64,000 nucleotides of DNA from Bacillota bacterium (GTDB lineage: Bacteria; Bacillota; Ch66; Ch109). Within the stretch, counting starts at the first letter, position 1, and every line of letters begins with the position of its first letter. Position numbers and translations under genes: made by a program. Where the stretch lies: the NCBI GenBank assembly GCA_013178275.1, contig JABLWZ010000019.1:62001-126000 (forward strand), given 5' to 3'. A model generated the notes under the pieces. The model worked only from the letters and a program-made list of their open reading frames with translations, did not search any database and had not been told where the DNA came from. Below are positions 21,769-24,108 of the stretch, one piece after another.

Positions 21769-23431
21769 GTCGTCTAACGGAAAACTGCATATCATCCCAC
21801 TGGGCGGCCTTGGAGAGATAGGAAAGAACATGACCGTTATCCGCTACGGTTCGGATATACTGGTCGTCGACTGCGGCCTGAAGTTCCCGGAGGATGAGTT
21901 GTTGGGTATTGACATCGTCATCCCCGATATATCTTATCTGAAGGAAAACCGCGAGATGGTCAGGGGCATCGTACTGACCCACGGCCACGAGGACCATATC
22001 GGCGCTCTGCCCTACGTCCTGAAGGAGTTGAACGTGCCGGTCTACGGAACCCAGCTGACGCTCGGGCTCCTGAAGCAGAAACTGACGGAGCACGAGATGC
22101 CGGAGGTAGAGCTGCGGACCGTCAGCTTCAAGGAAGAGCTGCGCCTGGGATGTTTCAAGGTCGAGTTCTTCAGGGTCAGCCACAGTATACCCGACTCGGT
22201 TGGCATCGCTATCCACAGCCCTATCGGAATGATCGTCCACACCGGGGACTTCAAGATCGACCAGACCCCGATCGACGGTGAGGTTATGGACTTTCACCGC
22301 CTGGCGGAGTTCGGCAACCAGGGGGTTCTGGTCCTGCTTTCCGACAGCACCAACGCTGAACGCCCCGGGTTCACCTTGTCCGAGCGGGTAGTGGGAGAGA
22401 CCTTTGACAATACTTTTAGAAAAGCCAGCGGAAGGATCATCATCGCGACCTTCGCCTCCAACATCCACCGCCTGCAGCAAGCCATTAAAGCCGCTGAAAG
22501 GTACGGACGCCAGGTAGCGGTGGTGGGAAGAAGCGTAGAGAACGTGGTCCGCATCGCGGAGGAACTTGGATACATCAAGCTGCCCCCCGGGTTATTGGTG
22601 GATATAGGAGATATCAGCCGATACCCGCCCGAACGTCTGGTCATATTGACCACCGGCAGCCAGGGGGAGCCGATGTCCGCGTTAACCAGAATGGCCATGG
22701 GAGACCACCGCTGGGTGGAAGTAATGCCGGGAGATACCGTTGTCATATCGGCGCTGCCGATACCCGGCAACGAAAAAATGGTGGCCCGCACCATCGACCT
22801 GCTGTTTAAACTGGGGGCCGAGGTTATCTACGAGGCTATGCTGGGGATTCACGTTTCCGGACATGCCAGCCAGGAAGAGCTGAAGCTGATCCTCAACCTG
22901 GTTAAGCCCAAGTACTTTATCCCCATCCACGGGGAGTACCGTCACCTGATCAAGCACGCCCGCATCGCGCAGTGCACCGGGATACCGCAGCAGAACGTGT
23001 TCGTGGCGGAAAACGGGCAGATACTGGAGTTTACCCGAAAAGGGGCTGCGGCGGCCAACGGCAGGGTCACCTCGGGCCGGGTCCTGGTGGACGGCCTGGG
23101 GGTCGGGGATGTTGGCAACATCGTACTGCGAGACCGCAAACAGCTTTCCGAGGATGGCATCATGATAGTCGTGGTGACCATTAACAAGGAAACCGGGGCG
23201 GTTCTGGCCGGGCCCGATATCGTATCCCGGGGCTTCGTCTACGTGAGGGAATCCGAGCACCTGATGGAAGAGGCCAGAGAGCGGGTACGACAGGCCCTGG
23301 ATAAGGGAGAAGGACAGGGCGTCACCGAATGGGCGGCGATCAAGAACAGCGTCCGCGACGCCCTGGGCAAGTTCCTGTTCGAGCGGACCCGCCGCCGTCC
23401 GATGATCATCCCGATAGTGATGGAGCTTTAA
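21769..23431 (+). CDS. rnj: Ribonuclease J
   Basis: LHIIPLGGLGEIGKNMTVIRYG, LTHGHEDHIGALPY, HVSGHASQEELKLIL; TTG start after GGAGGTG (ORF track starts at 21572). Confidence 0.95.
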
Positions 23432-23450: not shown

Positions 23451-24108
23451 AAGAGCAGCGGTCCGAATCGGACCGCTGCTCCATACTGTAGACCAAACTC
23501 AGCTCCGCAATTTGGTAGCTTCGCTACATCGCGGCGCGCAGTTCAGCTAACGGCTTAGATACGCTCTTTCCAGAATTATTAACGGCGTGCTTTTCCTAAT
23601 GCAGTTGGCGCTGCTGAAGGGCCTATTTTCAGCGGCTGTTATGGTGGTGCGGGACACGCCCCGGGTGTTTTAACGGCGGTTTAGGGCCCTAGCTCCGTAC
23701 TTGTTTACCATACCCCGCTGGAAACTCCGTTGCACCAGCATTCAATCAGCCTCAAATAGTGGGTGAGCCCTGCGGGGTCAGGAGCCCGTTATGGTGCTCT
23801 GCGTCTTACTGCCCTGCGAATGCTGACTGGTAGATGAGGGGCGAGCGACAGGAGGTCGCGAGAAGGCCGAGTGCATGGATTGCATATTCGCCTTATTACC
23901 CCATCTACCCGAAGCATGAGCAGTTGGCAGTACAGCAGAGGGAGTATGGAGCGACAGGACACCGCAGGGTGAGGCCCAGCCCTAACCAAGATTGAATGCG
24001 TCCTTGACCGTCGCCGCGTAAGTCCTAATCTTTTTCGTTTATTGTGGTGCCAATAGGTATGACGATTTGTAGACAGACTGGAGCAGCGGTCGATTCGACC
24101 GCTGCTCT
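23451..24108. ncRNA. Candidate large structured non-coding RNA bracketed by near-identical palindromes
   Basis: No plausible ORF over ~640 nt; GAGCAGCGGTCCGAATCGGACCGCTGCTC at the left end and GAGCAGCGGTCGATTCGACCGCTGCTC at the right end; internal CCCTGCGG/CCGCAGGG, GTAGAT-GAGGGG/CCCCATCTAC and GCGAC-AGGAG-GTCGC stems. Confidence 0.55.

Follow-up and report, generated by a model that had tools for sequence, protein, structure and literature searches.

CsrB, RsmY and RsmZ are sponge RNAs of Gammaproteobacteria, each encoded by a regulated single gene, and their binding of CsrA is proven. TwoAYGGAY (RF01731) was described in 2010 as a probable RNA whose function was not known (PMC2864571) and was predicted in 2015 to bind CsrA (PMC4333381); in the literature searched, we found neither a published test of that prediction nor a published link between TwoAYGGAY and a high-copy, terminator-targeting mobile element. 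Among mobile elements, IS1272, of the IS1182 family, inserts at stem-loops, often terminators, with no sequence preference (PMC5678879, PMC4923244); its transposition usually removes the hairpin (PMC4923244), and the stem-loop transposition model drawn for it includes a duplication variant (PMC5678879). QMITE1 and QMITE2 of Coxiella burnetii give rise to small RNAs, and one QMITE is the target of an IS110/IS1111-type element (PMC5896051). Here, we analyzed a 64,000-nucleotide stretch of DNA from a Bacillota bacterium (the window), in which the insert between rnj and tepA is most likely a 599-bp copy of a MITE-like, non-autonomous DNA transposon, one of about 50 in the genome. Taken as a whole, our reading is that of a hairpin-duplicating, MITE-like family carrying a conserved, TwoAYGGAY-related RNA, and we assign it a probability of roughly 70%; within it, the anatomy of the element and the fold of the RNA have good support, and a role as CsrA sponge is predicted.

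In the window, rnj stops at position 23431 and tepA starts after about 24150. The original prediction saw in positions 23451-24108 a candidate large noncoding RNA, free of ORFs, rich in long-range pairings and marked at both ends by near-identical palindromes. Much of that description stands: 23453-24107 holds no credible ORF, the only two of at least 60 amino acids across the gap (73 and 66 amino acids) having no Pfam match; the palindromes, 29 and 27 nt long, are indeed near-identical; a minus-strand TTTT run is present beyond the left one; and both proposed pairings are found, that is, CCCTGCGG (23768-23775) with CCGCAGGG (23962-23969) and GTAGATGAGGGG (23830-23841) with CCCCATCTAC (23899-23908). 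We rejected a decayed protein gene, given the short ORFs and their lack of a Pfam match, and likewise a genome-wide palindromic repeat, as a search of the 4.77-Mb genome places the window palindromes at the rnj-tepA locus and nowhere else. What changes is the meaning of the ends. Where the fetched stretch of a relative includes both genes, the distance between them is shorter and a single plain terminator hairpin follows rnj, so the extra bases of the window are an insertion at the rnj terminator. Judged by these relatives and by the alike flanks of other copies (see below), the palindromes, rather than bounding an RNA gene, are two copies of a terminator hairpin, left by the insertion of a mobile element. 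One minor correction concerns the limits: the mobile unit proper lies between the palindromes, which are outside the RNA (Table 1).

The insert is not confined to this locus. A BLAST search of the own genome with the gap region gave 54 matches, many of them at contig ends, and at least 45 copies of the element are present, at unrelated sites and with flanking hairpins that differ from copy to copy. The copies form subfamilies with about 90% and about 75% identity to the window copy, and some of them (L024, L029, L046 and L053) bear additional internal modules, about 100 nt long and without counterpart in the window copy, at fixed places of the rod-like structure. The family has the features of a MITE, namely, dispersed copies, CAGNCNGTNGACAAA terminal inverted repeats, a duplicated target, and, in the window copy, no transposase gene. 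The original prediction had named recognition as a known IS among the outcomes that would count against it; this holds only in part, as the repeat is mobile but corresponds to no known IS and contains a conserved RNA.

This copy number also bears on whether the locus instead houses a large noncoding RNA gene standing on its own, be it OLE or another. Such a gene would suit the length, the structure and the terminator-like hairpins seen on either side, and OLE (RF01071) had been suggested by name, but no Rfam family, OLE included, reaches gathering level over the region, and at E ≤ 10 the sole match to the window copy is a weak, chance-level riboswitch family; all other Rfam families were rejected, with nothing beyond chance. 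Set against at least 45 copies at unrelated sites, duplicated flanking hairpins that vary among these copies, and relatives that carry only the plain rnj terminator at the locus, a stand-alone gene is contradicted, and we regard it as extremely improbable.

Table 1. Features of the insert between rnj and tepA, in window positions
Feature	Position	Strand	Sequence or basis
Left copy of duplicated rnj terminator hairpin (target duplication)	23453..23481	.	GAGCAGCGGTCCGAATCGGACCGCTGCTC; only one rnj terminator in relatives
Non-autonomous mobile element, 599 bp	23482..24080	+ (RNA strand)	Own-genome BLAST matches, copy boundaries, end pairs
Left terminal inverted repeat, 15 bp	23482..23496	+	CATACTGTAGACCAA; family consensus CAGNCNGTNGACAAA
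Structured core	23735..24000	+	Closing helix GCATTCAATC (23738-23747) / GATTGAATGC (23990-23999); z = -6.8
Conserved RNA domain, model R1, 128 positions	23807..23934	+	Window copy 138.5 bits; relatives; covariation
Hairpin 1	23845..23859	+	GCGAC-AGGAG-GTCGC, GGA in loop
Hairpin 2, AUGGAU loop	23863..23894	+	GGA site 2, 26 nt away from that of hairpin 1
Right terminal inverted repeat, 15 bp	24066..24080	-	Reads TTTGTAGACAGACTG on +
Right copy of duplicated terminator hairpin	24081..24107	.	GAGCAGCGGTCGATTCGACCGCTGCTC; loop inverted, one C-G pair fewer than in the left copy

The flanks of the copies show how the element sits in its sites. We compared the 45 bases to the left with the 45 bases to the right of 45 candidate end pairs, taken from the own genome and from G114 (same phylum, different family), with mismatched pairs as the control. 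The mean flank score was 31.4 for true pairs compared to 14.3 for mismatched pairs, and 31 of the 45 end pairs exceeded the 99th percentile of the mismatched ones; several of the others resemble false end matches. What the two flanks have in common is a terminator-like hairpin, about 16 to 33 nt long and different in sequence at every site (at L109, for example, AAAGGTGCCTTGCGGCACCTTA flanks both sides), and the likeness is mostly in direct orientation, loops included. On the comparison of flanks, we regard this as clear evidence for hairpin-sized target duplications, an outcome only drawn as a variant in the published IS1272 model. Alternatively, the hairpin pairs might not be target duplications at all, with recombination or selection having placed the element between tandem terminators. 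That view would account for the unlike left and right hairpins of some copies (L002 and L058), for the one hairpin shared by the left flank of L002 and the right flank of L069, and for the few cases (the window, L065, and the L066/L051 pair) with opposite loop orientations left and right. These exceptions are also compatible with false end matches or with copies having recombined later, however, and the hairpin common to L002 and L069 suggests just such an exchange of flanks. Given the number of pairs that are alike, loops and all, in mostly direct orientation, tandem terminators strike us as a quite improbable origin, and we keep to target duplication. G114 also contains an abundant element of about 142 bp that shares these ends, likewise duplicates the hairpin and is free of the RNA (L120:1036-1177, L130:562-703, L132:364-506, and others).

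None of the copies examined codes for a transposase of its own, and no autonomous partner with the same ends was found among the sites examined in G000 (the own genome) and G114, where many contigs are broken within copies; near end-like sites of G114, the large ORFs checked are housekeeping genes, with no partner transposase among them. The IS1182-type element of the own genome was rejected as a partner: at L055, L056 and L057 there is no end-like site with up to 2 mismatches, and the end-like sites with 3 mismatches are not located at the ends of these loci. Two different IS110-family transposases (PF01548/PF02371) lie within repeat copies (L073:3300-4511, L075:383-1594, and L064:1855-3072), and the same foreign junction occurs at an identical site in at least four copies. 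These genes look like secondary, later insertions into the repeat, which IS110 elements seem to use as a target. For the movement of the element itself, we propose that rho-independent terminator hairpins would be recognized by shape and not by sequence, that a transposase supplied in trans would recognize the element ends and join them to the two feet of the hairpin, and that gap filling would then leave a full hairpin copy on each side, so that about 16 to 33 nt of target are duplicated. On the rnj strand, the left hairpin copy would be cut off from its U-tract, so that transcription could conceivably read through from rnj into the element.

Covariation, distant relatives and folding energy give strong support to the structured noncoding RNA domain of the original prediction. 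The core (23735-24000) folds at -127.5 kcal/mol, with none of 200 shuffles as good. A T-run on the minus strand had led to the suggestion that the RNA might be antisense to its neighbors, which was not borne out: the consensus fold is better on the + strand (-83.9 kcal/mol and 75 pairs) than on the - strand (-69.6 kcal/mol and 64 pairs). The full 599-nt fold has z = -3.1 on the + strand and z = -1.3 on the - strand. Across 21 own-genome copies, 22 of the 75 consensus pairs are doubly compensated; AAGGCCGA/TCGGCCTT in one subfamily, for example, becomes AAAGCAAA/TTTGCTTT in the other.

A covariance model, R1, with 128 positions was built from own-genome copies only. The RNA is a three-way junction in which a long rod bears two GGA-loop hairpins. 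With R1, the own genome yields 54 matches, of which about 45 are strong, and G018 yields 20. Of 300 genomes sampled from the phylum, 18, belonging to 13 genera, contain full-length relatives. Among 20 representatives, in an alignment fitted to the model, 35 of 40 R1 pairs covary and 91.7% of cells pair, compared to 34 to 42% with slid partners; in the helix of hairpin 2, all 13 model pairs are doubly compensated. When 15 foreign copies were aligned by sequence only, the outer helix and the stems of the two inner hairpins were recovered, and 20 of the 24 pairs predicted had changes on both sides. The exact core was absent from viral contigs. A gammaproteobacterial MAG contains the exact 23-base core, GGCGAGCGACAGGAGGTCGCGAG, which adjoins tRNA-like sequence (L076:7481-7503), with the rest of the fold absent; just 21 model positions are matched there, and we did not count it as an R1 relative. 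At L104:1129-1320, a cobalamin riboswitch lies immediately upstream of an R1 match.

The R1 RNA is akin to TwoAYGGAY. One R1 relative (L100) scores 54.5 bits to RF01731, whose gathering score is 43 bits, at the same place and on the same strand as R1, and G114:1359098-1359251, with 43.7 bits, is also an R1 match (L143). RF01731 further matches loci in G114, G018 and G135, and the fetched G114 loci are R1 matches too. Checked for AYGGAY-type loops, the window copy has AUGGAU in loop 2 and ACAGGAGG in loop 1, and RF01731 gives no match to it at E ≤ 10 and none in G000. Because RF01731 fails to detect the window copy, we call its RNA a distant relative of TwoAYGGAY and not a member. In Syntrophomonas (L101, L102, and L077-L085), the same RNA core lies within elements with different ends, ACTGCAAAAA... 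/ ...TTTTTGCAG, so elements of at least two kinds have carried the RNA.

GGA is found in both hairpin loops of 18 of 20 sequences, with a spacing of 25 to 29 nt, and the letters of the stems vary. Paired GGA loops on variable stems are the pattern expected of a protein-binding RNA. Both features looked for in a CsrA sponge, that is, at least two GGA hairpin loops and a CsrA encoded by the host, are present here, the own genome having csrA. All 18 R1-positive genomes encode CsrA versus 204 of the 282 R1-negative ones, with p = 0.004 by genome and 0.018 by genus; these values are uncorrected for kinship and cover only about eight families, and the association is weak once kinship is allowed for. 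We consider it possible, at somewhat less than even odds, that the R1 RNA binds CsrA. The fold might instead serve the element itself, its self-complementary strand acting as a transposition signal or keeping the insertion harmless, with GGA loops meant for another protein or for none. The RNA domain does sit within a mobile element with inverted arms, and the Syntrophomonas elements carry it between unrelated ends. The 142- and 200-bp elements, however, share the ends, are without the RNA and still insert at hairpins with duplication, so the domain is unnecessary for targeting; moreover, it is mainly the GGA loops that are conserved, with letters changing in the stems. A fold that serves only its element is therefore unlikely in our judgment, if far from negligible. 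Since these RNA-less elements target hairpins as well, the RNA looks like cargo and may be a passenger.

No consensus promoter was recognized for the RNA, and it is co-directed with the upstream gene in just 18 of 36 cases (crude ORF calls), which shows no orientation bias and disfavors simple readthrough; transcription is therefore a step that we infer. If transcribed, the R1 RNA would bind CsrA dimers through its paired GGA loops, like CsrB and RsmZ, and the element family would amount to a mobile, multicopy CsrA-binding RNA. That a transposable element has its own CsrA-sequestering RNA, with some 50 copies titrating the CsrA of the host as a mobile RNA sponge, is a tentative proposal that we ourselves hold to be rather doubtful. 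If true, such a sponge would rewire post-transcriptional control in Clostridia, and siting at terminators would make insertion harmless while readthrough could express the RNA. The link between TwoAYGGAY and high-copy mobile elements in many Clostridia offers dozens of natural variants per genome; it would explain the scattered distribution of TwoAYGGAY, and the CsrA prediction becomes directly testable.

Compared to the systems described so far, the rnj-tepA element shares its stem-loop target with IS1272 and other IS1182-family elements. Yet, IS1272 has its own transposase gene and usually removes the hairpin, whereas the rnj-tepA element has no transposase gene and its hairpin is duplicated; the IS1182-type copies of the own genome also have ends unlike those of this element. 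QMITE1 and QMITE2 resemble the present family in their roughly 50 non-autonomous copies (PMC5896051) and differ from it in having short direct repeats in place of a duplicated hairpin; no CsrA motif is mentioned for them, and they are not backed by a wide RNA family. TwoAYGGAY, like the R1 RNA, has two GGA-loop hairpins on a longer stem and occurs in Clostridia, although its Rfam model does not detect the window copy. CsrB, RsmY and RsmZ, finally, share with the R1 RNA the GGA in hairpin loops, the paired sites and a CsrA-encoding host; they are regulated single genes of Gammaproteobacteria for which binding is proven (PMC4333381), whereas the R1 RNA belongs to dispersed repeats of another phylum, and its binding is predicted.
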